DNA of 64,000 nucleotides, taken from positions 1 through 64,000 of IMG/VR virus record IMGVR_UViG_3300008266_000033. One strand, 5' to 3'. Numbering within the stretch: the stretch's first letter is position 1; each line of letters starts with the position of its first letter. The DNA is from a virus. This document shows positions 2,754 to 61,412 of this stretch, one piece after another. A model generated the notes under the pieces. It did no database searches, was not told the DNA's origin, and saw only the letters and a list, made by a program, of their open reading frames with translations. Position numbers and translations under genes: made by a program.

Positions 2754-4256
2754 TTAGTTTTTTTCACTAATGGCTACATCTTCTAGATTCTTTACATAAA
2801 GGGCATAAGAAGATATTGTAGACAAAGCACTTTTGGATAATTTATCTTTAATTCTAGAATCTAATTGATCGTATTCTTCATTATTCATGATGAAATTAAG
2901 ATGTGTTGGTATTCCTTCTTCAGAACGTTGTAACATAGCTCTATCGGCAACTAATTCGTTTGCCCAATAAAGTTTTCCCATAGAAGTAGTAGCACCTGCA
3001 ATATTCATTGCTCCATGTCTAGGTTTTTCTAAATTAGGAACAAATACAAAATTGGTAGGAGATTTTATTTTAATTTCAGTTATAACATCTGTGTTTTTAA
3101 ATTCTTTTTCCAAATATTGTTCCAATTCAACATCATTATCATCTACCACATCACTTGGCCACAAAGAATAATTTTCATCTTGCCATTCTTCTAAAGCATC
3201 CTCTGTAATACTAGTTAAAAACCACTCTATAATTCCTTCTGATGGATCCCAATGTTTTTTAACATGACCTAAACAAAAACTATATATTTTGTTAAAGTCT
3301 GAATTAATGGTATCAAAATAAAATGACCAGAATGTTTTTTCGAGGAATTTTTTTAGATTAGGGGTTTGCTCTAAATATTCAATTATATCCTTTATTTTGA
3401 TAAAATTTCTATTGTTAGGACTTAATAAAATCTCTTTACCATTTACTTGAATTTCTTGATTAGAAAAAATCATTTGATCCTTAATAAATTCTTGAACTAC
3501 ATCTAATTCAGCAAGATAAGGAATAACATTATATTTCCACTCTTCAGCTAAATCAATAATAGAATTTATAATTGAGGTTTCTACTATATCTCTTGCTGGA
3601 CCCAATGAATCTGTTGGGGTATTTATTTTTATTTCAAAAAGGGTAGATTTTATTTTGGTTAGTTCTTCAATAATATCAATAAGTTGTTCATTAGTTAATG
3701 ATTTTAAAAAATCTTCAATAGGAGTGGCTCTATTAGCAGTATTACTTAGCCAAGTATTATACCCATGTTTTTGTAAAATATTAACAATTTTGATTAATAT
3801 ATCGCCTTTAGTTGCAACATCAATTCCATTAGCATTATCATCTACAATTGAAACAATCTTTTTTATAATATCGTGGGCTTTTATATTAAAGGCAGAGGGA
3901 CGTTTAATTTCAATTTCTTTAATGGTTTTTATAGGGTATTCTCCTTCAACATACTTTTGATGAACCATAGGAAAATCACGAGGATCATCAGATCTATAGA
4001 TATATTTTTCAATTCTAGAATCATATCCCGGACTATCAAAGTAACTATCATCTATCATATAATAATTAGGATTTGTAGGAAAAAAAACAGTAGTTTGATC
4101 ATCAATTAGATTCCCATTAAAATATAATTTACCCCAATAATATTTGTATGGTTCACCTTCCCATTCTCCTGTCCCAGCAACATGAGTTTCATCTTTAACA
4201 AATTTAAATGGGGTAGCTGGATTATTTAGTGGTTTTAATATTTTTATTTCGTTCAT
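2754..4256 (-). CDS. NEIK-motif multi-module protein, 500 residues
   Basis: The protein carries four copies of the motif (x)E-I-[KE]-I-x-x-P, with the Glu at residues 3, 114, 208 and 394. Two modules are of the GKLYF...DD type that dominates the neighbouring 1795-residue protein (GKLYFNGNLIDD near 42; GKLYWANELVAD near 427). The module at 208-394 is helical and unlike the others. Three of the motifs are preceded by I/L-x-E (IKE, LFE, ITE), which resembles the T4 gp21 prohead-protease site. The start overlaps the stop of the previous gene by four bases. Function is unknown; an internal head protein or processed precursor is an inference. Confidence 0.75.
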   Translation of the reverse strand: MNEIKILKPLNNPATPFKFVKDETHVAGTGEWEGEPYKYYWGKLYFNGNLIDDQTTVFFPTNPNYYMIDDSYFDSPGYDSRIEKYIYRSDDPRDFPMVHQKYVEGEYPIKTIKEIEIKRPSAFNIKAHDIIKKIVSIVDDNANGIDVATKGDILIKIVNILQKHGYNTWLSNTANRATPIEDFLKSLTNEQLIDIIEELTKIKSTLFEIKINTPTDSLGPARDIVETSIINSIIDLAEEWKYNVIPYLAELDVVQEFIKDQMIFSNQEIQVNGKEILLSPNNRNFIKIKDIIEYLEQTPNLKKFLEKTFWSFYFDTINSDFNKIYSFCLGHVKKHWDPSEGIIEWFLTSITEDALEEWQDENYSLWPSDVVDDNDVELEQYLEKEFKNTDVITEIKIKSPTNFVFVPNLEKPRHGAMNIAGATTSMGKLYWANELVADRAMLQRSEEGIPTHLNFIMNNEEYDQLDSRIKDKLSKSALSTISSYALYVKNLEDVAISEKN

Positions 4257-4624
4257 AAATTAACTTTAGTTATAAAATCTAAATTTGAAAGATTTTTTAA
4301 TGTTGATTCTATACTTTCTTTTTCATATCCATCTTCTACTGCTATTTTGATAACCTCGGATATTCTATTAGGTTTTTCATCAGATATAGCCCCTATCATA
4401 ATTAATCTTCTAAGATAATATGAATTATCAAATACACTTTTAGGGGAATATTTCATACCTAAGTTATCAAATATTTCATTTTCTAAATCTCCTAATCTAA
4501 AAAAATAAAGTAAATCAAAAAACTCATCAAATTTTTTTATAGCTTCTTTTCCTGTTTCAGTTACTTCAAAAGTACTTGAAGGTGGTTGTATTTTTATTTC
4601 ACTTAATAAATTAATTAATTTCAT
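4253..4624 (-). CDS. Single-module NEIK-type protein, 123 residues
   Basis: The first nine residues, MKLINLLSE, are directly followed by IKIQPP, the same motif that opens each module of the two flanking large proteins. This N-terminus resembles a short capsid-targeting peptide ending in an L-x-E site. The rest is helical and charged with no recognised fold. The gene overlaps the upstream large gene by 14 bases and the downstream one by four, so the three form one translational unit. Function is not known from homology. Confidence 0.7.
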   Translation of the reverse strand: MKLINLLSEIKIQPPSSTFEVTETGKEAIKKFDEFFDLLYFFRLGDLENEIFDNLGMKYSPKSVFDNSYYLRRLIMIGAISDEKPNRISEVIKIAVEDGYEKESIESTLKNLSNLDFITKVNL

Positions 4625-7600
4625 AATTTGAAAAATATTTTTTATCTACTAGTATATTATTAACAAGACTTTCATAAGGAATACTTAACATATCTAATTT
4701 AGTTTTAATATCCCCAGCATATTGACCAGGATATAAATATACTACATCAGGTTCATCATCATGTATTGTTACTGATGTTTCAGGGAATCCTTCAATATCT
4801 ACAGAATATATTACCCCATCCCTCCATCCAGTATGATCCGTTAGTATTTTTTTAAATTTAAGTGGAATTATATTTTTAGGAGATTGTATTTTAATTTCAT
4901 TTGTATTTGATTGAGCTGATTCACCAATTTTATATCTAGAATCTAAATACCACTCCTCAATCATTCCATGTGTTTCTCCATTAGGATCATCGAAATTATA
5001 AGGATAAACATTGGTATATTCTTCTCTATATTTATCATATCGTTTTTCAGGGCTTCCTACAATATAAAAAGCATTATTTACCTTTTTATTTTTAGGAATT
5101 AAATACATTCCTTTTCTATACTTTGTAGGAGCTTGTACTTTAATTTCATTTAATTTTTTACAAGCAGAATATGGTATAGCATGTATTATTTCTGGCTTCC
5201 AATAATTAGTTTTAATACAAAAAGGAAATTTATCATCATCCGGTCCTACATAAGGCCATGCAATAGATGAAATATCATGAAGTGTTCCATCATAATTTTC
5301 AAACCATCGCTTACCAGATTTTAACAACTCATCAGTATAAAAATCGTATTCTTCTTGATTATTAACCATTAACGGAAATTCAAACTTAGTTTTAGGCTTA
5401 TTTATTTTAATTTCATTAACAGGTACATCAATTAAAGACAATGGAATTTTTATATATGAATCAGCAAAATCCTCATCAGGTCCAGCATCATTAACTATTT
5501 TATATGATTTACTATATTTATCTAATAAATTAGTTAACTCGGCTTTATGTCCTTCCTCTTCATCCCAATCATCAAAAGGCCAAATAATATAATCTTCATT
5601 TGTTTTATGATAACCAAAATAATTCAATTTTAATTCAGGGTGTTTTAAAGTTATATTATATGTAGGAACACCATTTCCATCAATATCAACAATGTTCATT
5701 AAATCTAAAGTGAAATTTTTCCAACCTGGAGTACTTATTTTAATTTCATCAATGTTTTCATCAATGACAGTAACAATGTTTTTTGGAATCTGAATCCAAA
5801 ACATTTCATCATCATGATCTATTCTTTTATATGATTTATTATATTTTGATAGTAAATCGGTTAATTTTTTAGCAAGATGTTCTTCATGAGCAGCCTCGTC
5901 ATCATCACCAAATTCTATATTAAAAACATCCGACCCCTGTTCCTTATGACCATACCAAAATATGTGACTTTCAGGATGTGCGAATTGGAAGATCTCAATA
6001 TCGTTATCTTCATCTACCAATTCAGCCTCAATATTTTTCCAATTTGGAGTACTTATTTTAATTTCATTTACATTATCATCCATAAACAATACACTATTTA
6101 AATCATCTATTATAAAAACAATATTAGGTTCATCTGTATCATAAGCTGAAACTTCAATAACATAAGGATCTATTTCATTTTTTAATGATTGATATACTGA
6201 CTCAGGTAAAATAAATCTTAATCTATTAACAAGACTTTTTTTATTATGAAAAGCATTAGAATCTATTATTTTATTTTTAAAATATAAATCCCCCATAAAC
6301 AAACCATCACCTAATGAGGCTCTAGTTTTAAATTTAAATACTTTATTAGGAACACCTACTTTAATTTCCCCAATAGGTTGAGATATATTAATTAAAGACA
6401 ACGGAATTTTTACAAACCCAAATTCAGGTATTAGTTCAAATGGTTTATCATATTTTGATAATAAATTAACCAATCTTTCCTTTTCATCAATATCTTGTCT
6501 ATACTCAATATCCCATACCCAAGTAACAAAATCTTCATTTGTTTTATAAAAAACAAAATAAGTTGATCTTAATTCAGGATGATCTAACGATAAAGTAAAT
6601 ATAGTACCATCAAATCTTACAACTTTTCTTAAATTAAAATTTTTCCAACCAGGAACACCTATTTTAATTTCATTAATAAAACTATTATGAGCTAATTCAT
6701 TAACTAAATCAGGCCATTCTTCTTGAATATATTCTAGTTGTTCTGAGGTTAATTCAGTACCATCTTCAAATTTAGCATATGAAATATACGCATCAGCAAA
6801 ATCAGGATAATCAGATTGAAATACATCTTCTAATTCTATTGATTTTAAGTCAACATATCTATTATCAATATAAGGTCGTCTTGAATCCATAGGAGCATTT
6901 ACTTTGATTTCATTCACCAACCCCTGTGTATCAACAATATCTACATTATTTAAATCTTTTATACCATAAAAAATTCTATCAGAATGTTGTATTGTAATTT
7001 TGGCTCCATTATCTAATAATGCCTGTTGAAGATCCTGATCTACAGGAAGGGGTAATTCAAAAACAATATATTGTTGCAAACGATGGGGTTCTAAACTTAC
7101 ATCATTCCTTTTATCAGGATAATATACAGTAGTATCATCTAAAAGTTTATTATTAAAATAAAGTTCCCCAAAATAACTCTCATTTGATTCTTCATAGCTA
7201 TCAACCTTAAGTTTAAATGGCTTTCCAGGTTTATTTATTTTAATTTCATCTAATTGTGAGGCTTGATCTGCTTCAACTGCTTTAATAGCATACGTGATAG
7301 AATTTAATGCATTTTTAATATTAGGATCATCAGTAACAACTGCCCAAACAACCGCATAAACAGCATTTAGAATTAATTTAGCGGCATCAGGATATCCTGG
7401 AGAATTAAGATTAACCTGAGAAATAGCTAATTTATTTTCCCGTGTAGGATTTAACAAATATACTTGAGCAGATTCTATGGCCTCATGTGGACTTTTATCA
7501 TTAGGTACTAATTTTTCAAATATAGGTAAAACAAGCTCGATGGCTTTAAGAGCTAATTCATTCTTTTCCTTTAGGTCATTGGTAAATTCTATTTGGCTTT

Positions 7601-9998
7601 TATAGGCTTTTAACCTACCTAAAATTCCAGGTGTTACTACTTTAATTTCATTAATAAATGGAGGTAAATTTTTTAAATTAACTTTACTAAGATCTTTTAT
7701 TATTAAAGTATGTTGGTAATTATCAGGATAATCAGTAATTTGAGCTAATGTTCTTTTTGTACTACCACCTATAATTCTATTATGAATGTATGGAGATAAT
7801 GAATCAAATAATCTTGCGTATGTGGGAGTATCTAAACTAAAAGCAATATAATATATCTTATCATCACCAGAAACTCCATAAGTATATACAGCATCACCAT
7901 CTAACAATTCACCATTAAAATACAATTCCCCCTCAGTTGAGTTATCATTTTCATCATAATAATAAGCATCATATGTAAATGGTTTGGGTGCGTTTACTTT
8001 AATTTCATTCAAATTATTAACAATTTTTACATTACTAACATCGTTTATTTTAATTACAAAATTATATCCACTATTAGAGGTACTCATTATATTATGTGAT
8101 GGTAATATATTTTCTATAGTATCATATATTTTTGATGGGATGTGAGTTACAATGAGCCCTCTATCTTTATGAAAAACAGCATAATCATCCAACAATGTAT
8201 CCTTAAAATACAATTTTCCTTTTTGTAATTGATCTCCTATACTTATTACCTCAAACCTAAAGGAGCTAGGGGCGTTTACTTTGATTTCGTTTAGCTTATT
8301 GATGATTTTAATATTGTTTAAATTTTTAAATGTTATACCAACTATATCATCCGGATGATTTTCTGCTTCATGTGGAGGTAATGAATTTTCTATTGTTTCA
8401 TATGTTTTTGAAGGTAACGAAAAATATATTATTGGGGAACCTTCCTCTCGCATCAAGTGGGCATAATCATTTAAAAGCGTATCATTTAAATAAATATTTC
8501 CATAAATCATATTAAAAAAGGGATTTTTTCTAGATGCTTCGAATCTAATAGATGAATTAGGAGTTTTTACTTTAATTTCATCAATAGAGGCTTCAACTGG
8601 ATTATCTTCCACATATTTCATTAAATTATTTATATGTTTGAATCTTCTACCTTTACTATCATCACCCAAATGAACTACTATTACTCCAGAGGGTTCTACA
8701 ATAATTGAATTTTTGTTTATAATTTTTGAACCAGGAAACAAGTAAATTATATGCCCGTATAATCTAGATTCAACCATTGTAGCCTCAGGATACAAAGATA
8801 AAATCCTTGAATATAATTGTTTTTCTATAATGTTTGGTGAATTTACTTTGATTTCATTCAAATTATTAACAATAGCAACCTTGTTAGGATCAATTACATA
8901 ATGAATACGTTTATCAGTAGAAAATGGCTCATATTCTTCTATATTATTGATCTTTAACAAATTTGTTAACTTTTCAAATTCAGGATTTTCTTTTTCTAAA
9001 TAAAACTGTACATGATTATATCTAGGATAAGTATTATATATAGCATTATCATCTACAAGATTACTGGATAAATAAAATTTTCCAAAATACACATCCCCGA
9101 GACCTTTTCTTTCAATTTCAAATCTAAATAATGAAGGTCTATTTACTGTGATTTCTTTTAATAATTTACCTGTTACAAGTATTGGGGTGTTGGGGGCAAT
9201 AAGATCTACCTCCTCAGGAGTTAAAGAATTTTTAATTTTTAGAGCAAACTCAGATACAATTTTTATTAAGTTTTTTTCCTCAATTACAGGAAGTAACTGT
9301 GATAATGTTGGATTTCCTTCAGAATCATCATATGTTGTGTTATTATAAGACCGCAAAATTAAAGCCTCACCAGAAACATTTTGAGGAATTAAAGCATTTC
9401 CTGTCCAAGGTTCTTTCCAAGTATCATCTGAGGGCTTTATTTGGATAGTAAGACTGGTTTGATTAGGAGGATAATAGTCAGGAGCCTGCCCATAATACAA
9501 TCCATCAAAAGAGGCTCTAAAATTAGATATATCGTAATTTAATTCTTGGGCTAATTTAGACAACAAAGAATATGTTTGGGTTGCTATTTTATCATACAAT
9601 AATTTCCTCTCAGGAGATGCTTCCCATGAATATATTTGGGCCTTTATTCCTGGTGTGTTTATTTTGATTTCATTTATCAAACCCAATTCATCAACAATTT
9701 TGATATCTTTTATATCATCAAACAAAACCTCTAAATAAGTACCAAAATAAGGTCCACCTAATTTACCCTCATATTCATCTAATATCTCGTGTGGGGGTAA
9801 TTGATCTTTAACTCTATCATATGTTTCTTTAGAAATTTCAGCAACCATTGATTTAGCTAAAGACAAAAAAGTACTATCATCTAAAAGCTCATCATAAAGG
9901 TACAAATTACCAAAGAATTCATTTGGTAGAAAACCTGTGCGTTTATTGGTTACTTCAAATCTAAGTGCGGATGGTCTTTTTACTTTAATCTCATTCAT
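4611..9998 (-). CDS. Giant modular NEIK-repeat protein, possible polyprotein, 1795 residues
   Basis: Seventeen modules of 80-172 residues each start with a motif NEIK[VI]xxP. The motif Glu residues are at 3, 110, 282, 382, 474, 571, 665, 784, 918, 1030, 1110, 1211, 1312, 1418, 1529, 1618 and 1701. Modules 1, 3, 5, 6, 7, 9 and 12 share a core like GxLYFxxxLLDD. Modules 11, 13 and 14 share WKN..., HPE and a YxxHK-type block. The other modules look unrelated. Fifteen of the 17 motifs have I, L or V two residues before the Glu, similar to the L/I-x-E sites cut by the T4 prohead protease. A TATTTATAATAA late-type element precedes the start. Cleavage into many small internal head proteins is an inference; an uncut multidomain virion protein is the alternative. 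Confidence 0.85.
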   Translation of the reverse strand: MNEIKVKRPSALRFEVTNKRTGFLPNEFFGNLYLYDELLDDSTFLSLAKSMVAEISKETYDRVKDQLPPHEILDEYEGKLGGPYFGTYLEVLFDDIKDIKIVDELGLINEIKINTPGIKAQIYSWEASPERKLLYDKIATQTYSLLSKLAQELNYDISNFRASFDGLYYGQAPDYYPPNQTSLTIQIKPSDDTWKEPWTGNALIPQNVSGEALILRSYNNTTYDDSEGNPTLSQLLPVIEEKNLIKIVSEFALKIKNSLTPEEVDLIAPNTPILVTGKLLKEITVNRPSLFRFEIERKGLGDVYFGKFYLSSNLVDDNAIYNTYPRYNHVQFYLEKENPEFEKLTNLLKINNIEEYEPFSTDKRIHYVIDPNKVAIVNNLNEIKVNSPNIIEKQLYSRILSLYPEATMVESRLYGHIIYLFPGSKIINKNSIIVEPSGVIVVHLGDDSKGRRFKHINNLMKYVEDNPVEASIDEIKVKTPNSSIRFEASRKNPFFNMIYGNIYLNDTLLNDYAHLMREEGSPIIYFSLPSKTYETIENSLPPHEAENHPDDIVGITFKNLNNIKIINKLNEIKVNAPSSFRFEVISIGDQLQKGKLYFKDTLLDDYAVFHKDRGLIVTHIPSKIYDTIENILPSHNIMSTSNSGYNFVIKINDVSNVKIVNNLNEIKVNAPKPFTYDAYYYDENDNSTEGELYFNGELLDGDAVYTYGVSGDDKIYYIAFSLDTPTYARLFDSLSPYIHNRIIGGSTKRTLAQITDYPDNYQHTLIIKDLSKVNLKNLPPFINEIKVVTPGILGRLKAYKSQIEFTNDLKEKNELALKAIELVLPIFEKLVPNDKSPHEAIESAQVYLLNPTRENKLAISQVNLNSPGYPDAAKLILNAVYAVVWAVVTDDPNIKNALNSITYAIKAVEADQASQLDEIKINKPGKPFKLKVDSYEESNESYFGELYFNNKLLDDTTVYYPDKRNDVSLEPHRLQQYIVFELPLPVDQDLQQALLDNGAKITIQHSDRIFYGIKDLNNVDIVDTQGLVNEIKVNAPMDSRRPYIDNRYVDLKSIELEDVFQSDYPDFADAYISYAKFEDGTELTSEQLEYIQEEWPDLVNELAHNSFINEIKIGVPGWKNFNLRKVVRFDGTIFTLSLDHPELRSTYFVFYKTNEDFVTWVWDIEYRQDIDEKERLVNLLSKYDKPFELIPEFGFVKIPLSLINISQPIGEIKVGVPNKVFKFKTRASLGDGLFMGDLYFKNKIIDSNAFHNKKSLVNRLRFILPESVYQSLKNEIDPYVIEVSAYDTDEPNIVFIIDDLNSVLFMDDNVNEIKISTPNWKNIEAELVDEDNDIEIFQFAHPESHIFWYGHKEQGSDVFNIEFGDDDEAAHEEHLAKKLTDLLSKYNKSYKRIDHDDEMFWIQIPKNIVTVIDENIDEIKISTPGWKNFTLDLMNIVDIDGNGVPTYNITLKHPELKLNYFGYHKTNEDYIIWPFDDWDEEEGHKAELTNLLDKYSKSYKIVNDAGPDEDFADSYIKIPLSLIDVPVNEIKINKPKTKFEFPLMVNNQEEYDFYTDELLKSGKRWFENYDGTLHDISSIAWPYVGPDDDKFPFCIKTNYWKPEIIHAIPYSACKKLNEIKVQAPTKYRKGMYLIPKNKKVNNAFYIVGSPEKRYDKYREEYTNVYPYNFDDPNGETHGMIEEWYLDSRYKIGESAQSNTNEIKIQSPKNIIPLKFKKILTDHTGWRDGVIYSVDIEGFPETSVTIHDDEPDVVYLYPGQYAGDIKTKLDMLSIPYESLVNNILVDKKYFSNYEIN
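4883..9998 (-). repeat. 17 copies of the coding repeat for NEIK[VI]xxP
   Basis: On the plus strand each copy reads roughly TTTACTTTAATTTCATT, with third-position changes, at about 9.97, 9.66, 9.15, 8.85, 8.57, 8.28, 8.00, 7.64, 7.24, 6.90, 6.66, 6.36, 6.06, 5.74, 5.40, 5.14 and 4.89 kb. The motif is kept while the DNA between copies differs widely in most cases. Conservation is therefore focused on about eight residues rather than on a whole domain. Further copies lie in genes at 4253, 2754 (four) and 61062. Confidence 0.85.
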
Positions 9999-16153: not shown

Positions 16154-16339
16154 TTATCTTAATAAGGTTACTGTTCCGTTTTGTGTTTTATATTTCATAT
16201 TAATATCTCTATATTCAACTTGATAATAATATACACCATCAGGTGCTAAATTTCCCTGATATGTTCCATCCCATGCTTGGTTTAGTTGATTAGATTGAAA
16301 TATAAGTATTCCTGTTCTAGTATATACAACAAATCTTAA
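16154..16339 (-). pseudogene. Detached remnant of a T9SS type-B sorting domain
   Basis: In a different frame from the preceding gene, 61 codons encode the second half of a CHU_C/gliding-motility C-terminal domain. It runs from RFVVYTRTGILIF through WDGTYQGNLAPDGVYYYQVEY to NGTVTLLR and a stop. The usual first half (xxPNAFTPNxDGxND) is missing, so a deletion together with a frame change has separated this tail from the protein at 16336-18573. It has no start codon or ribosome-binding context of its own. An assembly error could give the same picture. Confidence 0.7.
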
Positions 16340-18573
16340 TCAATTCCCATAGTGTAAGTTGCTTCAGTAATTAATTCAACACAGTATCTTCCTGGTTGTA
16401 GATACCTATGAGTTGGTTCATAATCTGTAGATATTTCTGAATCATCAAAATTCCAATAATAATTATCTCCATCCTCAGATAAATTTATAAATTCAAATAC
16501 TGGGGATAATATGTCTATGGGATTAGATTGATTTGAATTAAATGCGGCTGATGGTGTTTTATTTATTAAAATATGGTTAGGTTTAACTAATGAATCAACA
16601 CATCCTTTATCAGTAATAGCTATTAGCCTTGCTGTAAATTGACCAGGTGAATCATAACATCGTTTAGTCTCTTCTCCAGTTTGAATTATACCAGGTTCTA
16701 AATTCCATTCATAAGTGTATAATGGATTAGGATCAATTACAAAAAAATTAATACAAGCAGGATGGCATTCACTGGTACTACTTTCGTCAAATAAAGCAGA
16801 TGGTAATGGGTTTACCACTACATTCAAAGTATGAGTTTGTTGGCATCCATTTGCATCAGTTAAAGTAGCAGTATACATTCCATCTGAGGGAGGATATACT
16901 ATTGAACCATTAACATCTTGATTAATATTATAGGTATTAGTCCAAACTATATTGTAAGGAGCAATTGCACTTTGTTGTGCCACTAACAGCTCTAACGGTT
17001 TACCAAAACATAATACCTCGTTATTATCTCCAGTTAATGTTATATTAAGAGGCTGATTTACATTTAAATCAAACATCTTAACACAACCATTATTATCAGT
17101 TACAATTAATTGATAGTATCCTGCACTCACATTAAATAAATCAGGGTTATTTATTAATGGGGCTGTGTTCCAAGAATAATCATATGGAGGAGTACCACCT
17201 AAAATATTAGCTGATATAGTTCCATCTGAGTATCCAAAGCAAGTTGGTTGAACTGAAACGAAAGTATTTTGAATATCTTGTAGTGGGCCTGTAATAGTTG
17301 CAATATTATCTAATATACATCCATTATCATCAATAATAGTAAGAGCATAATTATCTATAGCTAAATTATTAAATATTCCAGTAAGATTAGATAATGTATT
17401 GCAATGATATATGTAAGGGGGGGTTCCTCCAATTCCCTCTATTTGAATTTGACCATTATTTGCATTATAACAGTCTACATTTGTAACAGTTAATTGATTA
17501 TATTCTAATGGAGGTGGTTCTGTTATATTTACTCCAATGTTAGTAGTACATCCATTATCATCAGTTACTATTACATTATGTGCTCCAGCTGGTAAATTAT
17601 TAAATATTCCAGTTAAATTGATTACACCATTTAGGTTGTAGGTATAAGGTAAAGCACCATTAATTGAGTTAATAGTGAAGCTACCATTATTTTCTCCAAA
17701 GCATACATTGTCTTGTTGAGTTGTAATATTATTTACTACAGTTGTATTTTCTCCAACTACAACATTGATAGGATTTCCAACACATCCTTCATCATCCTCT
17801 ACTGTTACCACATAATTCCCAGCACCAATATTAGTTACTGGTATAGCAGAAGCAATTCCATTGACTGTATAGATGTAAGGTGCAGTACCTCCTACTGTTG
17901 TAATTGCAAAAGATCCATCATTAAATCCGCTACACGAGGCATCAATTATATTATTTGAACTAATAACAGGCAGCACATTACATCCTGTAACTGTACTTCC
18001 AGGTGATAATTCAGCAGGGTAAAGACCATTACATCCATTAGTACCCCAACTACCTGCAAATCCATCACTAACTGGAGATACTTGTATTGATAGTGAGTTA
18101 CCAACTGTAGGTCCTACTACTATAGTAAAGCATAAAGTCCAAGGTCCAGTTCCAAAGTCTCCCCAATCATCTGTAGTTTGGCCGTTAGTGTTTAAGTCAA
18201 AAAAGAAACCAGGCCCAAATTGATTTCCACCTCCACCTGAGGAAGCAGGATTACCATTAAATGTTCCTGGTATCCATAACCATTGGCCTCCTGATCCATT
18301 TCCTCCATTATTTGCTGGGTATGTTGTAGGAGTTAATGTTGTTAAATCCCAACCAGGTCCTAAATTAAGATCAAATCCTTCTAGCCAATTGGTACCTATT
18401 CCAGTATTCCAATTGTTATAGGTTATACAAAATTGGACTGTTGTTCCAGGAGCGTACCCCCCATTAACAGGGGCAGGATTAACATTGAAATTTTCTGTGC
18501 CCATGCAATCGTTTTGAGCACTTAAAACTAATGAGATTAATATTAACCCTATTAAAAGAAATAACCTTTTCAT
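16336..18573 (-). CDS. SprB-like secreted adhesin, C-terminus interrupted
   Basis: The 745-residue precursor has a signal peptide (MKRLFLLIGLILISLVLSAQ) and a Gly/Asn-rich N-terminal domain to about 200. Five SprB-type repeats follow (about 205-590), each with CFGxxDG, GGTxPYxYxxN and TDxxGC. Two PKD-like domains follow, the second with YYWNFDD and RYLQPGRYCVEL. SprB is the gliding adhesin of flavobacteria and such proteins leave the cell by T9SS. The frame stops at TYTMGID just where the sorting domain should begin, and a domain remnant follows in another frame. Without that domain the product might stay in the periplasm. The role in infection is unknown; host-surface alteration is inferred. 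Confidence 0.85.
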   Translation of the reverse strand: MKRLFLLIGLILISLVLSAQNDCMGTENFNVNPAPVNGGYAPGTTVQFCITYNNWNTGIGTNWLEGFDLNLGPGWDLTTLTPTTYPANNGGNGSGGQWLWIPGTFNGNPASSGGGGNQFGPGFFFDLNTNGQTTDDWGDFGTGPWTLCFTIVVGPTVGNSLSIQVSPVSDGFAGSWGTNGCNGLYPAELSPGSTVTGCNVLPVISSNNIIDASCSGFNDGSFAITTVGGTAPYIYTVNGIASAIPVTNIGAGNYVVTVEDDEGCVGNPINVVVGENTTVVNNITTQQDNVCFGENNGSFTINSINGALPYTYNLNGVINLTGIFNNLPAGAHNVIVTDDNGCTTNIGVNITEPPPLEYNQLTVTNVDCYNANNGQIQIEGIGGTPPYIYHCNTLSNLTGIFNNLAIDNYALTIIDDNGCILDNIATITGPLQDIQNTFVSVQPTCFGYSDGTISANILGGTPPYDYSWNTAPLINNPDLFNVSAGYYQLIVTDNNGCVKMFDLNVNQPLNITLTGDNNEVLCFGKPLELLVAQQSAIAPYNIVWTNTYNINQDVNGSIVYPPSDGMYTATLTDANGCQQTHTLNVVVNPLPSALFDESSTSECHPACINFFVIDPNPLYTYEWNLEPGIIQTGEETKRCYDSPGQFTARLIAITDKGCVDSLVKPNHILINKTPSAAFNSNQSNPIDILSPVFEFINLSEDGDNYYWNFDDSEISTDYEPTHRYLQPGRYCVELITEATYTMGID

Positions 18574-19050: not shown

Positions 19051-19581
19051 TTAACTTCGTATTAAATTTAATTTTATTTGTTCATCACACCAAGATGAAA
19101 ATTCTTCTAATGTTTTTTGAATAAATTCTTGGAATTCTGATATATTGTCAGCGGTATAATATTTTTCTCTGCTATATGAGGTCTCACCAGGGCCAAGAAC
19201 TGTAATATAATATTTAGGTGTTTTAGATTCAGATCCATCTGGGAGTAGAGTTGATTTAAAAAATCTTATTATTCTTTTTTCCATTTTTTTATTTTCTAAA
19301 GATAAAACACACATAGGATCATCTGGGGGTGATAATTTTATATATGGGCGAAGTTTTTTAACATTTTCTTTTTCAGAAAAATCTTTAACAAGTTTACATT
19401 CTTCATCACTTAAAGGGGAAAGTTTTTCTCCATTAGCTAAAACAGCAGAGTTAGGTTCTTTTACACTATACATGTTTTGTTGGTTTATTTCTTTAACACC
19501 TTCATTTAACTGTGACTTAGTAATGATGCCCGCAAGTTTTTGCATTCTTCTGAATTCTTCAGATATAATTTGTTTTTTCAT
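19051..19581 (-). CDS. Hypothetical protein with capsid-targeting-like N-terminus
   Basis: I start at 19581 (MKKQIISEEFRRMQKLAGI), because SEExxRMQKLAGI followed by LNE is a recurrent N-terminus in environmental phage proteins. The LNE/G site near residue 27 fits the L/I-x-E sites of T4 prohead protease, so the N-terminus may be removed after packaging into the head. The rest (about 150 residues) is charged, with LSPPDDPMCVLSLENKK and a C-terminal helix. The fold is unknown. A TATTTATAACAA late-type element lies 16 bases upstream and a strong terminator downstream. Confidence 0.65.
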   Translation of the reverse strand: MKKQIISEEFRRMQKLAGIITKSQLNEGVKEINQQNMYSVKEPNSAVLANGEKLSPLSDEECKLVKDFSEKENVKKLRPYIKLSPPDDPMCVLSLENKKMEKRIIRFFKSTLLPDGSESKTPKYYITVLGPGETSYSREKYYTADNISEFQEFIQKTLEEFSSWCDEQIKLNLIRS

Positions 19582-19596
19582 TTTGTTAAGTATTTT

Positions 19597-19608
19597 GTTA
19601 TAAATATC
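19597..19608 (-). promoter_or_regulatory. Candidate late promoter
   Basis: GATATTTATAAC (followed by AAAA) on the minus strand, 16 bases before the chosen start at 19581. Its position before a gene with a capsid-targeting-like peptide parallels the NEIK genes. Confidence 0.4.
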
Positions 19609-19807
19609 ATTCATCTTCTAATCCATCCATCAAAGTAACATCCCAATCTTCATCATCAGTACGTTCAAATGCACCATCAGGTCCAATTTGAAAATCATCT
19701 GAAACATATATATCCCATAGCTTTTTATCCATCCATTCATCATAAGTTAATGTTGATGTTGGATTTTCTTTGAGGTAGTTTTGGTATTGGGTTTCGAGGG
19801 TTGCCAT
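19607..19807 (-). CDS. Small acidic phage protein
   Basis: The 66-residue protein has NPTSTLTYDEWMDKK in the middle and a very acidic C-terminus (ERTDDEDWDV). The NPxSxLTYxEW phrase recurs in small phage proteins of unknown function. The start context is TAGTTATG directly after thyA. No membrane segment. Confidence 0.6.
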   Translation of the reverse strand: MATLETQYQNYLKENPTSTLTYDEWMDKKLWDIYVSDDFQIGPDGAFERTDDEDWDVTLMDGLEDE

Positions 19808-43009: not shown

Positions 43010-44659
43010 TTAAAACATGTCGTTATATTGAGGAACAGCATTATTTTGTTTTGATTCCTCTTTTTTATCTACTATAACACATTCAGTCAATAATACAGTA
43101 CCAGCTACTGAAGCAGCATTTTCTAAAGCAGTTCGAGTAACTTTAGTAGGATCAATAATTCCTTGCTCAATCATATTAATAACGATTTCTTCTTTAATGT
43201 TGTATCCAAAATATGGTTTTTCACCTGCTTCTCCTAATTCAAGAATTAAATTACATGTTTCATATTGTTCTCGTTCTGAAATTCCAGCATTAGATACGAT
43301 TTTACTAAAAGGAGCAAAACATGCATCATGAACTATTTGCTTTCCAATATTAAAATCCTCACTATCAGATTTAGAATATGTAATAGCTTGACTAGCATAG
43401 ATTAGAGCTGAACCACCACCTGGAACAATACCTTCTTCAATTGCAGCTTTAGCAGCATGTAATGCATCATCAACCCTATCTTTCTTTTCTTTCATTTCAG
43501 TTTCAGTATTACCACCAACATGGATAATAGCTACACCTCCAATGAATTTAGCTAAACGTTCTTGTAATTTTTCTTGCTCATAAGGAGTAGCAGCTTTTTC
43601 AATTTGAGCTTGAAGTTCTTCCATTCGTTGTTTAATACTTTCTTCAGAACCTTTACCATCAACAATTGTAGTTTTATCTCGATCAACAGTAGCTACTCGT
43701 GCTTCACCAAACCAATTTGAATCAAAACGCTCAAACTTCATTCCTTTTTCACTACTGAATACTGTACCACCAGTTAAAATAGCCATATCTTCTAAAAGAA
43801 GTTTTCTACGCTCACCAAAATCAGGAGCTTTAACTGCTGCTACTCTTAGAATACCTCTCATTTTATTTACGATAAGAGTTGCTAATGCTTCACCATCAAT
43901 ATCTTCTGCTACAATAAGTAAAGATCGATTTTGGTTTGAAACACTTTCTAATAGTGGAAGTAATTCTTTTACTTGAGTGATTTTTCTATCAACTATTAAA
44001 ACCAATGGTTTATCTAGAGTACAGGACATGTTATTATTATCAGTAACAAAATAATGTGATTTATAACCACGATCAAATTGCATACCTTCTACTGTTTCAA
44101 GATATGTTTCACCTGAACGTGATTCTTCAATATGAACTACACCTTCACGTCCTACTTTTTCTAAAGCAGTAGCAATAATTTTACCAGTTTCAGTATCGTT
44201 ATTAGAAGAAATAATAGCTACTTGCTCTAATTGTTCTTCTGAAGCAATATCTGAGGAGATTTGGGTTTTTAAGCAGTCAACTATTTGTTTTACTCCAGCA
44301 TCAATACCTCGTTTAATTTCTACTGCATTATGTCCATTATTTAGATATTTAATACCTTTTTGAATAATTTTTTGGGCTAATAAGGTTGAGGTTGTTGTTC
44401 CATCTCCTGCTCGATCAGCTGTTTTAATAGATGCTTGTTTAACCATTTGTGCTCCCAATTCTTCAATAGGATCTTCAAATGAATCTACTCGTTTAGCTAC
44501 TGATACACCATCTTTAGTAGAAACTACATTTTCACCATCATTAAAAATTACATTTCGGCCATTAGGACCTAAAGTAGATGTCACAGCATCACTTAACCTA
44601 TTAATACCTTTAATTAGTTTTTCTCTCGCAACTGCGCCTGTTTCAATAACTTTACTCAT
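43010..44659 (-). CDS. groEL: Chaperonin GroEL
   Basis: The 549-residue protein has all GroEL hallmarks, including GRNVIFND and KDGVSVAKRVD early, AGDGTTTSTLLAQKI near 85, IVPGGGSALIYA near 410 and a full apical domain. The usual GGM tail is replaced by AVPQYNDMF. It lies 15 bases after groES. The pair would make a phage folding chamber, perhaps for capsid or large phage proteins. It is placed within the replication gene block. Confidence 0.95.
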   Translation of the reverse strand: MSKVIETGAVAREKLIKGINRLSDAVTSTLGPNGRNVIFNDGENVVSTKDGVSVAKRVDSFEDPIEELGAQMVKQASIKTADRAGDGTTTSTLLAQKIIQKGIKYLNNGHNAVEIKRGIDAGVKQIVDCLKTQISSDIASEEQLEQVAIISSNNDTETGKIIATALEKVGREGVVHIEESRSGETYLETVEGMQFDRGYKSHYFVTDNNNMSCTLDKPLVLIVDRKITQVKELLPLLESVSNQNRSLLIVAEDIDGEALATLIVNKMRGILRVAAVKAPDFGERRKLLLEDMAILTGGTVFSSEKGMKFERFDSNWFGEARVATVDRDKTTIVDGKGSEESIKQRMEELQAQIEKAATPYEQEKLQERLAKFIGGVAIIHVGGNTETEMKEKKDRVDDALHAAKAAIEEGIVPGGGSALIYASQAITYSKSDSEDFNIGKQIVHDACFAPFSKIVSNAGISEREQYETCNLILELGEAGEKPYFGYNIKEEIVINMIEQGIIDPTKVTRTALENAASVAGTVLLTECVIVDKKEESKQNNAVPQYNDMF

Positions 44660-44673
44660 GTTTTTTATAGTTT

Positions 44674-44964
44674 TTAATCATTAATAATTGCTAATAACTG
44701 TTTTTCAGGGCAAATATAATATTCTTCCCCCTCAAAGTCAAATTTAGTTGGACCCATTTGTGGGAGAATTACTTTATCTCCTACTTTTACAATAGTACTT
44801 AAAAATTCTCCTGTAATAGTATGACTACCAGGACCGATTGCTACTACTGTACCTGAAAGATTTTTTTCTTTCCCCATATCAGGAACGATAATAGATCCAT
44901 AACTCATTTCTTCTTGTGAAAATGGTTTAATAATAACTGCGTCGAATAATGCTTGTAATTTCAT
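44674..44964 (-). CDS. groES: Co-chaperonin GroES
   Basis: The 96-residue protein has the GroES domain: FDAVIIKPFSQEE at the start (in place of DRVLIKP), a mobile loop MSYGSIIVPDMGKEK, GTVVAIGPG near 38 and VGDKVILPQMGPTKFDFEGE. It shares an ATGA junction with the gene upstream and precedes groEL. The mobile loop ends IVP, close to the IVL/IVP hydrophobic triplet needed to bind GroEL. Confidence 0.92.
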   Translation of the reverse strand: MKLQALFDAVIIKPFSQEEMSYGSIIVPDMGKEKNLSGTVVAIGPGSHTITGEFLSTIVKVGDKVILPQMGPTKFDFEGEEYYICPEKQLLAIIND

Positions 44965-55592: not shown

Positions 55593-56303
55593 TTAATGTC
55601 TTATCCCAAGCTGAGATATGTAATCTTGTTAATCCTCTAAATTTATATTTTTTAGCCATCTCCAATGTAAACTGAGTACGCTCATGGAAATCTGTTTGAC
55701 TATCTAAACCAGGCATGCAAACTACATTTTTAAGTGGAATATTAAATGGCTCAATAAAGTCACGGAATATTTCCTTAACATCATCTTCAGTTGAAATAAC
55801 GAACTTAAATTGATAGTTTGAGTGTTCCATGATGCGTTTGATAGCATCAGGATTGATACGTTGTTTTTCAGCTAGACCTGAGTTGGATAGTTTAGGTGAG
55901 CAGTTGATTTGATGGCTTCTTGGTGTCCTTTAATTGTAGGTTCACCACCAGTCCAAATAATGTGGATAGTACCATTTTTAACATCCTCATAAATGCCTTG
56001 TTCTTTCCATTGATCGATTAGATATTGGAAGTCTTTTTCTTCACCTCTCCATAACCATTGAGATGTACTATCGCAGGTCCATGTGGCTTTACCTTCTAGC
56101 TCTAAATCACCTTTGAATATCTCCCCATCTTCTAATGATTTATCTTTCATTAGTTGATTGGCAAACTTACGAGACATACCGCAGGTTAAGTTACAGATTC
56201 CTAAGCGAACAAAGTATGAAGGAATACCCGTAGATATTCCCTCACCTTGTACACTATAAAAGTCTGAGCTTATTAATAGTTTATTTGGATTAATTGCGCT
56301 CAT
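55585..56303 (-). pseudogene. queE: QueE (7-carboxy-7-deazaguanine synthase), split by frameshift and deletion
   Basis: The first frame (55872-56303, 143 codons) has SDFYSVQGEGISTGIPSYFV and CNLTC near 37-41, a second Cys site TCDST near 77 and IIWTGGEPTIKGHQEAI near 115. It then runs into a stop. The second frame (to 55585, from about 55908) continues with INCSPKLSNSGLAEKQRINP and the normal QueE C-terminus LTRLHISAWDKTLNV. About 40 codons expected between GHQEAI and INCSPK, including the ETNG motif, are missing. As read the gene cannot give an active radical-SAM enzyme; a true deletion or an assembly error are both possible. Confidence 0.8.
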
Positions 56304-56995
56304 TAGAATACTAATTCAGGAGTTACTGTTTTTGGTTTAAAGTATGATTCTAAAAAACTTTTAGGGTAAAGTAAAACTTGACCTTTATATGTTTTAGTTT
56401 GAACTTCACGTACATTTATAGATACTTTAAGTTTAGTTGCTACTTCAGCAACCTTTTTACCTAGTTCACTACCTGCAGGACGTCCTAAATAATCATACAG
56501 TGATAACATTTCTTCTTTTTTTGTTGTATTTTGAGTTTCCATATAACTTGCTGAGTTTCTATCGTGTTCGTAAACTTCTACTTTTATGGCTCGTACACGG
56601 CCTTTTGTTTCTTCTTTTAAAAATCTATTAATTTGTCTATAAAGATATTCTGCAAAACGTTCACATCCTGTAGCAGGAAGTACTCGTAATTGAATAATAC
56701 CATCTTTATCCATTTGCACAAATTTATCTAGATATGGATCATCTGATGCTACAATTGTGGTATGATCAAGTAGATATGTAAAGAAATCTTTAGGTGATTT
56801 ACCTCCAATTTTATGTTTAGCACGCTTCATACCTCCAAAATCCCATACCCAGTTACGTTCATCTAGATCTCCTTCGAACCATACTCTAAAAGATACAGCA
56901 TATCCATGAAGATATTTACAATGAGTACTATCTGCTTTCCATTGACGAAAACATGTACTGAATCCATCAAATAATTTGGTTGATTGGAATTTCAT
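56303..56995 (-). CDS. queD: QueD, 6-carboxytetrahydropterin synthase, with C-terminal extension
   Basis: Residues 1-150 carry the QueD fold: FSTCFRQWKADSTHCKYLHG with the zinc His and catalytic Cys region, WVWDFGGMKRAK near 49, LLDHTTIV near 75 and VEVYEHDRNSA near 139. It makes 6-carboxytetrahydropterin from the FolE product. At 230 residues it is about 80 longer than usual. The extra C-terminus (LGKKVAEVATKLKVSINVRE; GQVLLYPKSFLESYF) is unknown and may be specific to phages. It overlaps queE by one base. Confidence 0.9.
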   Translation of the reverse strand: MKFQSTKLFDGFSTCFRQWKADSTHCKYLHGYAVSFRVWFEGDLDERNWVWDFGGMKRAKHKIGGKSPKDFFTYLLDHTTIVASDDPYLDKFVQMDKDGIIQLRVLPATGCERFAEYLYRQINRFLKEETKGRVRAIKVEVYEHDRNSASYMETQNTTKKEEMLSLYDYLGRPAGSELGKKVAEVATKLKVSINVREVQTKTYKGQVLLYPKSFLESYFKPKTVTPELVF

Positions 56996-56996
56996 A

Positions 56997-57275
56997 TTAG
57001 GAATTTCTTTGTTTTACGATATCAACAAATTCATCTAATGTTCTCCATTGAACTAGTTGATGATCAGCATCCATATCCTCAGGTTGATCTCGTACAACTT
57101 CTGCCAAAAGCATTTCGCCATTAGATGATTTACCAATTGCTACGAATCCAAAACCTTCACAAATGGTATTAACCATTGAATCAGGTTCAAGATTAGCAAA
57201 TTCTTCCAAAATGTCGAAATCCCAAGGGAGTTCAGAATCAAATGCTTCGCAGTACTGTCTTGAAAATTCTGCCAT
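56997..57275 (-). CDS. Hypothetical 92-residue phage protein
   Basis: A small acidic protein with FSRQYCEAFDSELPWDFDIL and FGFVAIGKSSNGEMLLAEVV. I do not know the family. It lies between thioredoxin and queD in one transcript. No sign of QueF motifs. Confidence 0.6.
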   Translation of the reverse strand: MAEFSRQYCEAFDSELPWDFDILEEFANLEPDSMVNTICEGFGFVAIGKSSNGEMLLAEVVRDQPEDMDADHQLVQWRTLDEFVDIVKQRNS

Positions 57276-57288
57276 AATTTTTAGTTGT

Positions 57289-57534
57289 TTAGTTTATAAA
57301 ATTGATTATTTCGTTTAACGTTTTAACTCCTGTAAATCTACGAATCTCTTGTTGATTATCCCCGACTAATACTACTGTAGGAATATTTCTTACTCCAAAT
57401 CTTTGAACCATTTCTGGTGATGAATCAACATCAATTTTGTTAATATTGATATGTTGTCCTACTTGTTCCATAATTGGACCTAGTGTTCTACATGGTCCAC
57501 ACCATCCTGCTGAAAAATATAATAATTGTTTCAT
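57289..57534 (-). CDS. Thioredoxin
   Basis: The 81-residue protein has the complete small thioredoxin: LLYFSAGWCGPCRTLGPIM with WCGPC, and VRNIPTVVLVGD with the cis-proline. It is shorter than E. coli thioredoxin (108). It probably reduces the phage ribonucleotide reductase whose NrdA ends in a CxxC-type tail. It precedes the queD-containing genes. Confidence 0.93.
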   Translation of the reverse strand: MKQLLYFSAGWCGPCRTLGPIMEQVGQHININKIDVDSSPEMVQRFGVRNIPTVVLVGDNQQEIRRFTGVKTLNEIINFIN

Positions 57535-57539
57535 TATGT

Positions 57540-57995
57540 TTAGTTTTTTATTTTTAAATAATCTTCTATGGTAATTTTAGTATTTCTTTCCAAATAATGA
57601 AATTCTCTATGACAATTTGAGCAGAGAGGAATACATTTTTCAATTTCTTTAAAAGTATCTTCTATAGATTTATATTGCCAAGCATTACCTATTGCTATAG
57701 ATTTGGTGGTAGGATCAATATGATGAAAATCTAAAAGATAATATCTAGTTTCTTTACATTTAGAACAGCATAATGTTTGTTTATATTCATTTACTGTTTC
57801 TTTATATTTTCGTTTAAATTCTTTTTGATATTCTCTCCATTGATCCTTATTCTTATTATAATTAGCTTTAGTAGTTTCTCTTACACATGCTTTACAATAA
57901 TATTCCCACCCATCTTTTTTACTTTTTCTATGATGCCAAAATTCTTCAGTTAATGGTTTATCACTATTACACTTAGTACAATGTTTTATCTCCAT
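57540..57995 (-). CDS. HNH endonuclease
   Basis: I choose the start at 57995 (MEIKHCTKCNSDKPL), ten bases after the late-type element; the longer start at 58004 is possible. CTKC and CKAC near the N-terminus form one zinc knuckle. YLLDFHHIDPTTK near 100 and CIPLCSNCHREFHY near 127 form the HNH site. It looks like a stand-alone homing endonuclease. Confidence 0.88.
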   Translation of the reverse strand: MEIKHCTKCNSDKPLTEEFWHHRKSKKDGWEYYCKACVRETTKANYNKNKDQWREYQKEFKRKYKETVNEYKQTLCCSKCKETRYYLLDFHHIDPTTKSIAIGNAWQYKSIEDTFKEIEKCIPLCSNCHREFHYLERNTKITIEDYLKIKN

Positions 57996-58004
57996 AATTG
58001 TCAT

Positions 58005-58018
58005 TTATAATAAATATG
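58005..58018 (-). promoter_or_regulatory. Candidate late promoter of the HNH gene
   Basis: CATATTTATTATAA on the minus strand, ten bases before the preferred start at 57995. A GTGAC/GTCAC inverted repeat lies just upstream. Confidence 0.45.
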
Positions 58019-58047
58019 TGACAATCCCTTAGAAATAATGGTCACTA

Positions 58048-58857
58048 CTATTTATTTTTCCATTTTTCTAAAATACTTTTAACATAAGTTTTAACAACAT
58101 CCCAACTTACTTCACCATTTTCATCTTCATATTGAATAGGGTCAGGATGACCTAGTTGAATAAATGCTTCGATACGTTCTACTGAAGATGCTGATTTATA
58201 GTCACTATTACCTGATGGGTATGGTTTATAACTTGTGTTAGTACGCCGGTATATTTCATTAAAATCTAATTCCAATTCTTGACATATTTCATACCCAGCT
58301 TCTAAGATAGAAGCTTTATCAATAAGTAAATAAGGAGTATAATAATTTACTTTCTCAGAACCCCAATTACCTAATTTAAATGCTTCTAAATCTGCATCTC
58401 TAAATTCAGGTCTACAGTCGGGGTAAACACTTTCGTCTCCTTTATGTATTCCCATTGCAACATCTACAAAGCAATTATGTTTTTCAGCAATAGATAAAGC
58501 AATAGCTTGAGTAATTGAACTAAAAATTTTATTGCGATTAGGTACTACTGTTGCTTTCATATTATCATCAGCATAGTGACCTTCAGGTACTTCATCACCT
58601 CCAGTTACTAATGTTGAATTTAATAATTGTGATAAACCATCTAGTTTAATTACTTGATATGTAATATCATTTTCAAAACCTTGAGATGTCAAATAATCTA
58701 TTAAAGATTGAGCTCGTTCTAACTCAACTTTATGTTTTTGACCATAGTCAAATGATACACACGTTACTTGATAATCATAATTTAATAGATGTAGCAATAA
58801 AGTGCTACTATCCATTCCACCTGAGAGTGATAGTACTGCTTGTTTCTTCATAGTCAT
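58048..58857 (-). CDS. queC: QueC, 7-cyano-7-deazaguanine synthase, zinc ligands lost
   Basis: The 269-residue protein has LSLSGGMDSSTLLL near 9, VSFDYGQKHKVE near 33, ATVVPNRNKIFSS near 104 and GIHKGDESVYPDCRPEF near 136. These identify QueC, which makes preQ0 from 7-carboxy-deazaguanine. The C-terminal block where the bacterial enzyme has four zinc Cys reads TSYKPYPSGNSDYKSASSVE, with none of them. The fold may be kept without zinc, or activity changed. It overlaps the upstream gene by four bases. Confidence 0.9.
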   Translation of the reverse strand: MTMKKQAVLSLSGGMDSSTLLLHLLNYDYQVTCVSFDYGQKHKVELERAQSLIDYLTSQGFENDITYQVIKLDGLSQLLNSTLVTGGDEVPEGHYADDNMKATVVPNRNKIFSSITQAIALSIAEKHNCFVDVAMGIHKGDESVYPDCRPEFRDADLEAFKLGNWGSEKVNYYTPYLLIDKASILEAGYEICQELELDFNEIYRRTNTSYKPYPSGNSDYKSASSVERIEAFIQLGHPDPIQYEDENGEVSWDVVKTYVKSILEKWKNK

Positions 58858-61061: not shown

Positions 61062-61412
61062 TTATGAATGTTCTCTTAGTTTATCCATTAATTGTTCAAT
61101 TTCGCCTTTATCTAAACCAAAATTATCTTTTATTGTTTCTATATCTTCTTTAGAAACAATACATTGTTCTGGGGTCCAGTTTTCTGAAAGAGCAGTAGTA
61201 TAAAGTGCATAGAAAAAATAAAAATTATTTAAAGGACTAAAATGAACATCTCCATTTGGATTTACATCAACATTCCAATAATCACATAACTCTACTAATT
61301 GATAAAATTTTTTATATTCATCAGAGTTAACAATATAATTTATTGGTCTATTAATCTTAATCTCTTTTTGTAGTTCTTCTTTAATGATTTTTTGAAGTTC
61401 AGATTTTTTCAT
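61062..61412 (-). CDS. Distant NEIK-motif protein, 116 residues
   Basis: The N-terminus MKKSELQKIIKEELQKE is followed by IKINRP, the same motif that starts modules of the 1795-residue protein more than 50 kb away. The lead peptide looks like a capsid-targeting sequence. The remainder is helical (KEDIETIKDNFGLDKGEIEQ). A TATTTATGATAA element lies upstream, as for the large NEIK gene. Confidence 0.65.
   Translation of the reverse strand: MKKSELQKIIKEELQKEIKINRPINYIVNSDEYKKFYQLVELCDYWNVDVNPNGDVHFSPLNNFYFFYALYTTALSENWTPEQCIVSKEDIETIKDNFGLDKGEIEQLMDKLREHS

Follow-up and report, generated by a model that had tools for sequence, protein, structure and literature searches.

Candidate cargo polyproteins of a T4-like phage with modules joined at putative prohead-protease sites

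Polyproteins that are cut into working parts are typical of eukaryotic RNA viruses and retroviruses. Among DNA phages, the internal head proteins IPI, IPII, IPIII and Alt of T4 carry capsid targeting sequences and are processed by the gp21 protease (PMC9026906, PMC3012670). T4 gp21 cuts after L/I-x-E; the targeting peptides are 10-19 residues long, and Alt is trimmed at its C-terminus as well (PMC9026906). In the giant phage SPN3US the prohead protease gp245 cuts ejection proteins according to the rule A-x-E (PMC10052503). Polyvalent proteins of phages and conjugative elements combine several domains and are considered to move with the genome; their authors compare them with viral polyproteins (PMC5512222).

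We analysed a window of 64,000 nucleotides at the start of an IMG/VR virus record of 128,411 bases (G000; L-numbers below denote contigs and G-numbers records that were compared in the analysis). The record encodes gp23 (PF07068, E=1e-77) and, at 101202-101846, a gp21-type S77 prohead protease (PF03420, E=5e-24; phrog_207, E=7e-46), which scores 85.2 bits against a curated S77 family cut-off of 27 and whose ELDHP and SSRG blocks, the conserved His and Ser blocks, align with T4-like gp21. The initial annotation of the window had proposed that such a protease be sought in the rest of the genome, and it is found beside scaffold and gp23. Since a scaffold gene lies between the protease and gp23 genes, and since Flavobacterium phage immuto ranks among the closest named phages when protease and thymidylate synthase are compared, we assign the virus to the T4-like myoviruses; its host group is probably the Bacteroidota. 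Seven records with leader or chain genes of the kind described below were tested for an S77 protease as well: five have it (G006, G011, G012, G015 and G016), and it was not found in G013 and G018, which are pieces of 85 and 51 kb. The T4 gp23 site ..FLTE/A (here and below the slash marks a known or putative cut) aligns with ..LVTE, ..IVSE, ..LVVE and ..LVLE of this record and related phages.

Several other observations concern these genomes. In two records, G017 (108864-110534; source of L083) and G021 (102959-104629; source of L094), the S77 match falls into two parts within one 651-aa open frame, as if the head protease held a large in-frame insert, for example an intein. The window has GroEL-like (549 aa) and GroES-like (96 aa) genes at 43010-44964, identified from their sequence and from the annotated gene pair of immuto and possibly linked to capsid protein folding. 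QueE-like and QueC-like genes of the queuosine pathway (55872-58857), whose annotated homologues in immuto occur with DpdA, suggest 7-deazaguanine DNA modification. A secreted-looking protein of 745 aa (16336-18573) weakly matches a Hoc-like head decoration family (E=2e-4).

The genes of interest are listed below, with module families as obtained by blastp/phmmer comparison between modules.

4611..9998, minus strand: proposed cargo polyprotein of 1795 aa (207 kDa), 17 modules, begins MNEIK
9669..9989, minus strand: module 1, aa 4-110, family A
9153..9668, minus strand: module 2, aa 111-282, singleton
8853..9152, minus strand: module 3, aa 283-382, family A, after LKE/ITVNRP
8577..8852, minus strand: module 4, aa 383-474, homologous to a module exchanged between polyproteins L091 and L096
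8286..8576, minus strand: module 5, aa 475-571, family A
8004..8285, minus strand: module 6, aa 572-665, family A, modelled with AlphaFold
7647..8003, minus strand: module 7, aa 666-784, family A
7245..7646, minus strand: module 8, aa 785-918, Imm5-like
6909..7244, minus strand: module 9, aa 919-1030, family A
6669..6908, minus strand: module 10, aa 1031-1110, homologous to an internal module of L076
6366..6668, minus strand: module 11, aa 1111-1211, family B
6063..6365, minus strand: module 12, aa 1212-1312, family A
5745..6062, minus strand: module 13, aa 1313-1418, family B
5412..5744, minus strand: module 14, aa 1419-1529, family B
5145..5411, minus strand: module 15, aa 1530-1618, singleton
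4896..5144, minus strand: module 16, aa 1619-1701, singleton
4614..4895, minus strand: module 17, aa 1702-1795, singleton
2754..4256, minus strand: second proposed polyprotein of 500 aa, four modules, starts MNEIK
4253..4624, minus strand: stand-alone cargo gene of 123 aa, leader MKLINLLSE followed by IKIQPP
61062..61412, minus strand: stand-alone cargo gene of 116 aa, leader MKKSELQKIIKEELQKE followed by IKINRP
19051..19614, minus strand: protein of 187 aa with an RMQKLAGI leader peptide resembling the scaffold tail, without IK[VI]xxP

Each module of the 1795-aa protein begins with IK[VI]xxP, with ITVNRP as the one exception. Family A takes in modules 1, 3, 5, 6, 7, 9 and 12 (7 of 17) and, from the 500-aa protein, the modules at aa 4-116 and aa 395-500; family B takes in modules 11, 13 and 14 (3 of 17), and the other seven of the 17 are singletons. 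The initial annotation had described most modules as unrelated in appearance; for the 1795-aa protein this does not hold, as 10 of its 17 modules fall into two families. The further modules of the 500-aa protein span aa 117-208 and aa 209-394, the latter homologous to a module of L051. The 123-aa gene overlaps the 3′ end of the 1795-aa gene.

The 17 motif copies reported earlier for the 1795-aa protein were recovered at the same coordinates, as 16 copies of E-I-K-[VI]-x-x-P and one E-I-T-V-N-R-P, as were the single copies after the leader of the 123-aa protein (residue 9) and in the gene at 61062 (residue 17 of 116 aa). Of the four copies ascribed to the 500-aa protein, three are strict and the fourth is degenerate (IKEIEIKRP). 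Beyond the window the record holds three more, at 121057 (a 94-aa leader gene), 117339 (a 1213-aa protein) and 127582 (an ORF). A tblastn search of named phages with the 1795-aa protein gave no match, a single-protein scan of viral contigs found nothing, and a scan with the family-A alignment showed the family to be insufficiently conserved; a gapped DNA pattern of two motifs was dropped after matching only the unrelated contigs L013-L018. Scanning for NEIK[VI]N also brought up three clusters (MSIFNEIKINKPN, MNEIKINQPL and MNEIKINAPE) that look unrelated and were excluded from site statistics.

In the record and related contigs we collected 99 distinct sites with the consensus [ILV]-x-E/[IV]-[KR]-[VI]-x-x-P. 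P2 is mostly N, and P3 is I, L or V in 84 of the 99 (background 22%), figures to be read with the knowledge that the search pattern fixed E, P1′-P3′ and P and that one scan also favoured hydrophobic P3 codons. P3 was free in the window set, where 18 of 22 strict copies have I, L or V and two of the four others are the start Met of MNEIK. Both the earlier remark that I, L or V mostly stands two residues before the Glu and the likeness drawn to the L/I-x-E of T4 gp21 are thus borne out. The few sites with T, Q or W at P3 count against T4-type cutting, as does the conservation of IK[VI]xxP after the putative cut, for which the T4 rule has no requirement; this element may be a docking signal. Elsewhere in the 1795-aa protein [ILV]-x-E occurs at about chance level (37 over the whole protein versus 33 in shuffles), so that the site definition needs more than L/I-x-E.

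Three leader types, MIKLINILxE, MKKSxLxxIIK.. and ..EFxRMQKLAGIxE, head many small genes of related contigs; immuto too has leader genes of the RMQKLAGI kind. The same site Glu ends all three types, often with IK[VI]xxP directly after it. Many leader proteins keep [ILV]-x-E without IK[VI]xxP, which makes the Glu, and not IK[VI]xxP, the common element. The third leader type looks like the sequence at the very C-terminal end of the scaffold protein. That end reads FSRMQKLAGLK in this record, VSRWQKLAGIIK in immuto and VARMQKLAGIK in L099 and L100, and is more diverged in G006 and G016. In the seven genomes and contigs first scanned, all matches to the scaffold-tail peptide lie near an N- or C-terminus, and [ILVM]-x-E stands within 14 residues before each of the 10 C-terminal tails found (background 21%). 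Thus, one candidate cut site is common to the leaders and to the docking tails at C-termini. From their position on the scaffold protein, we infer that such leader and tail peptides dock to the shell or core.

Other leader-like sequences were noted alongside. Three consecutive small genes of L026 (5581-6726; G008) share the near-identical leader MKKQ.LSEEF.RMQK.AGI ahead of different bodies and appear to be a tandem array of leader-tagged genes. A ferritin-like protein of G000 (121590-122138; PF00210, E=1e-17) starts with MNNKLNLLNE, which resembles the leaders, and a packaged ferritin is possible. The very large virus record G016 (record of L088, 527 kb) has S77 and a scaffold ending in DLAAIKKLAGVK; judging by it, the docking tail may reach past this phage group.

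Comparison of relatives revealed insertion, fusion and exchange of modules at the Glu. One small, conserved head gene, located between those for portal and protease, has the sequence DLWKEESLNEVRYSQFK in L103, without a module, and DLWKE/IKINQP..module..KLNE/SRYTQFK in L100; in L099 (7908-9830; G011) it is enlarged to 640 aa by six motif modules, three at the place of the L100 insertion and three beyond the end of the gene. A 638-aa protein of G006 has two motif modules inside an insert of ~340 aa. Its homologues of 286-300 aa, among them one encoded in the same record as the window, lack this insert. For the first part of the 1213-aa protein of the window's record, the homologues are separate genes ending in TGLNENFDRMKKLAGLK or TGLGEQFIRMQKLAGLK; in place of their docking tail the 1213-aa protein continues with TGLDE/IRVKAP and further domains. 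In L022, modules are added after a part shared with an NadR-like protein of immuto; in L062, a pair of genes that elsewhere stand apart are fused, and two modules lie at the junction. The polyproteins L091 and L096 share 77% identity overall; what sets them apart is one module bounded by two NE/IK seams, and the exchanged L096 module is a homologue of window module 4. Homologues of module 8 occur as a stand-alone leader gene (L020) and as an N-terminal or internal module (G006). The proposal that gene borders and module borders are interchangeable is therefore upheld in the relatives by the head gene, the fusions, the L091/L096 pair and module 8. The modules behave as cassettes, and their border is the Glu.

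Module 6 was modelled with AlphaFold from ten sequences, together with the motifs that flank it. The prediction is a compact domain spanning residues 17-98, and on either side of it the motif lies in coil of low confidence. The family-B model is weak (mean pLDDT 60), and its flanks are disordered too. Predicted to lie outside the fold, the motif would be a linker, as a protease site needs, which does not by itself prove cutting. The initial annotation had suggested a search of the modules for effector folds; Foldseek gave no fold match at E <= 0.001 for family A against the PDB or for family B against viral models. Functional matches are few. In the window there is only module 8, Imm5-like but below the curated cut-off; two of its G006 homologues clear a cut-off of this group. 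Among leader or chain proteins elsewhere, L054 weakly matches ART-PolyVal, L092 matches a nucleotidyltransferase domain, and L051 (1304) weakly matches a T7-0.7-kinase-like family. This diversity of putative cargo resembles that of T4-type internal proteins and does not establish effector function. Family searches gave no match to a peptidase domain within the 1795-aa or 500-aa proteins.

We consider the 1795-aa and 500-aa proteins to be probably cargo polyproteins of a T4-like phage processed by its head protease, because insertions and exchange are bounded by the Glu, the record has an S77 protease, one leader type shares its peptide with the scaffold tail, and modules occur in head genes of relatives. 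We infer that the 1795-aa chain is packaged in the head, cleaved and injected, and that its parts act as effectors. Each module would be a small independent protein within the chain. At head maturation the gp21-type S77 protease would cut the joint [ILV]-x-E/IK[VI]xxP after the Glu, which would separate the chained cassettes besides removing targeting peptides in T4 style; the freed modules would remain in the head and probably enter the host along with the DNA. We lean, if narrowly, towards a more general formulation, in which this one site serves as leader end, module border and insertion seam of a phage polyprotein that is processed in trans by the capsid maturation protease and delivered with the DNA. 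With all these roles in one site, any small protein could be added to a leader gene, to a head-core gene or to a chain, with as many as 17 modules in a row. The reading of the initial annotation is partly supported and is the best supported of those considered here: the protease, the L/I-x-E likeness, the interchangeable borders, the linker model and the modules in head genes of relatives speak for it, and its effectors are left with one weak match (Imm5-like).

Some observations count against head packaging of the T4 type. No docking tail is recognisable in the 1795-aa or 500-aa proteins, and an N-terminal capsid targeting sequence is absent from both, as they start with MNEIK; leaders of the targeting type are present on the 123-aa and 116-aa genes. 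In-frame upstream extension of the 1795-aa gene met stops and yielded no leader, which excludes a longer, leader-bearing form. In addition, most modules are acidic, and the three IP proteins of T4 are basic.

That the 1795-aa chain is without any other targeting peptide, and that IK[VI]xxP is conserved past the Glu for no known protease reason, would suit a motif that is never cut and acts as a docking or targeting peptide, binding scaffold or shell and repeated for avidity, with the chain packaged whole or serving as an assembly core. We regard this as unlikely, since many leader proteins keep [ILV]-x-E but not IK[VI]xxP and since modules inserted into a conserved head gene exactly at the Glu are easier to tolerate if the joints are cut. 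The DNA of the motif brings in a further reading. In the 1795-aa gene the third codon base of the P3′ V/I is A in 17 of 17 copies (expected 37-46%), the P1′ Ile codon is never ATA (expected 37%), and effects of neighbouring codons, when tested, did not account for the P3′ bias. The motif DNA is thus more alike than the protein sequence demands, and the seam may therefore also spread by recombination; one DNA version is repeated in G006, and modules are exchanged at seams. A recombination seam or inert linker within an unprocessed tandem-domain protein is nevertheless quite unlikely to be the whole account: conservation is at the amino-acid level across phages with differing codons, [ILV]-x-E also occurs in leaders and scaffold tails, where no two modules meet, and recombination is compatible with cutting.

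Tandem small beta domains in two repeated families could also belong to an external virion protein, a fibre or adhesin with the motif as interdomain linker. This is very improbable, as the motif is found behind the leaders of unrelated small genes and between modules within head-morphogenesis genes, and no match to fibre or adhesin families was seen. Chance or simple internal duplication has a negligible claim, although 10 of 17 modules belong to two families and some short NEIK matches elsewhere are coincidental. It is already refuted by 5,000 shuffles of the 1795-aa protein, which gave a mean of 0.014 motif copies (maximum 2), and by independent multi-copy proteins in other contigs; moreover, family A, family B and the unrelated singleton modules all share the motif.

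If the favoured reading of cleaved cargo polyproteins is true, a DNA phage chains its internal head proteins and uses its capsid maturation protease to cut them apart, a way of expressing and delivering proteins that would be new and would help to explain how phages carry many anti-host and anti-defence proteins. The signature of a leader, tail or seam at [ILV]-x-E could be used to find head cargo in uncultured phages, a protein set almost without annotation, and the claim is directly testable by virion proteomics. Our search for literature on phage polyproteins cut by a prohead protease, or on these peptides, found nothing similar among sources that included few subscription papers and preprints, so the novelty is provisional.

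The proposed system is probably a new variant of T4-type internal-protein packaging with its targeting peptides. As in T4, an S77 protease adjoins scaffold and gp23, short N-terminal leaders end in [ILV]-x-E, a conserved leader is followed by hypervariable small proteins, and terminal peptides are possible at both ends, as in Alt. Unlike in T4, many modules share one reading frame and are joined by the site itself, the residues past the Glu are conserved (IK[VI]xxP), and the scaffold C-terminus is echoed in one leader type; cleavage, established in T4, is here predicted from sequence. With SPN3US the system shares a prohead protease with x-E sites at several places and head proteins that would enter the host, but in SPN3US the protease, with its A-x-E rule, trims off long propeptides that are then discarded, and here what lies between the sites looks like folded cargo. 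Like polyvalent proteins, the chains are multidomain, and ART-type domains occur in both (a weak match, in L054); however, polyvalent proteins are proposed to be released by peptidase domains of their own, whereas the candidate protease of the present phage would act in trans.
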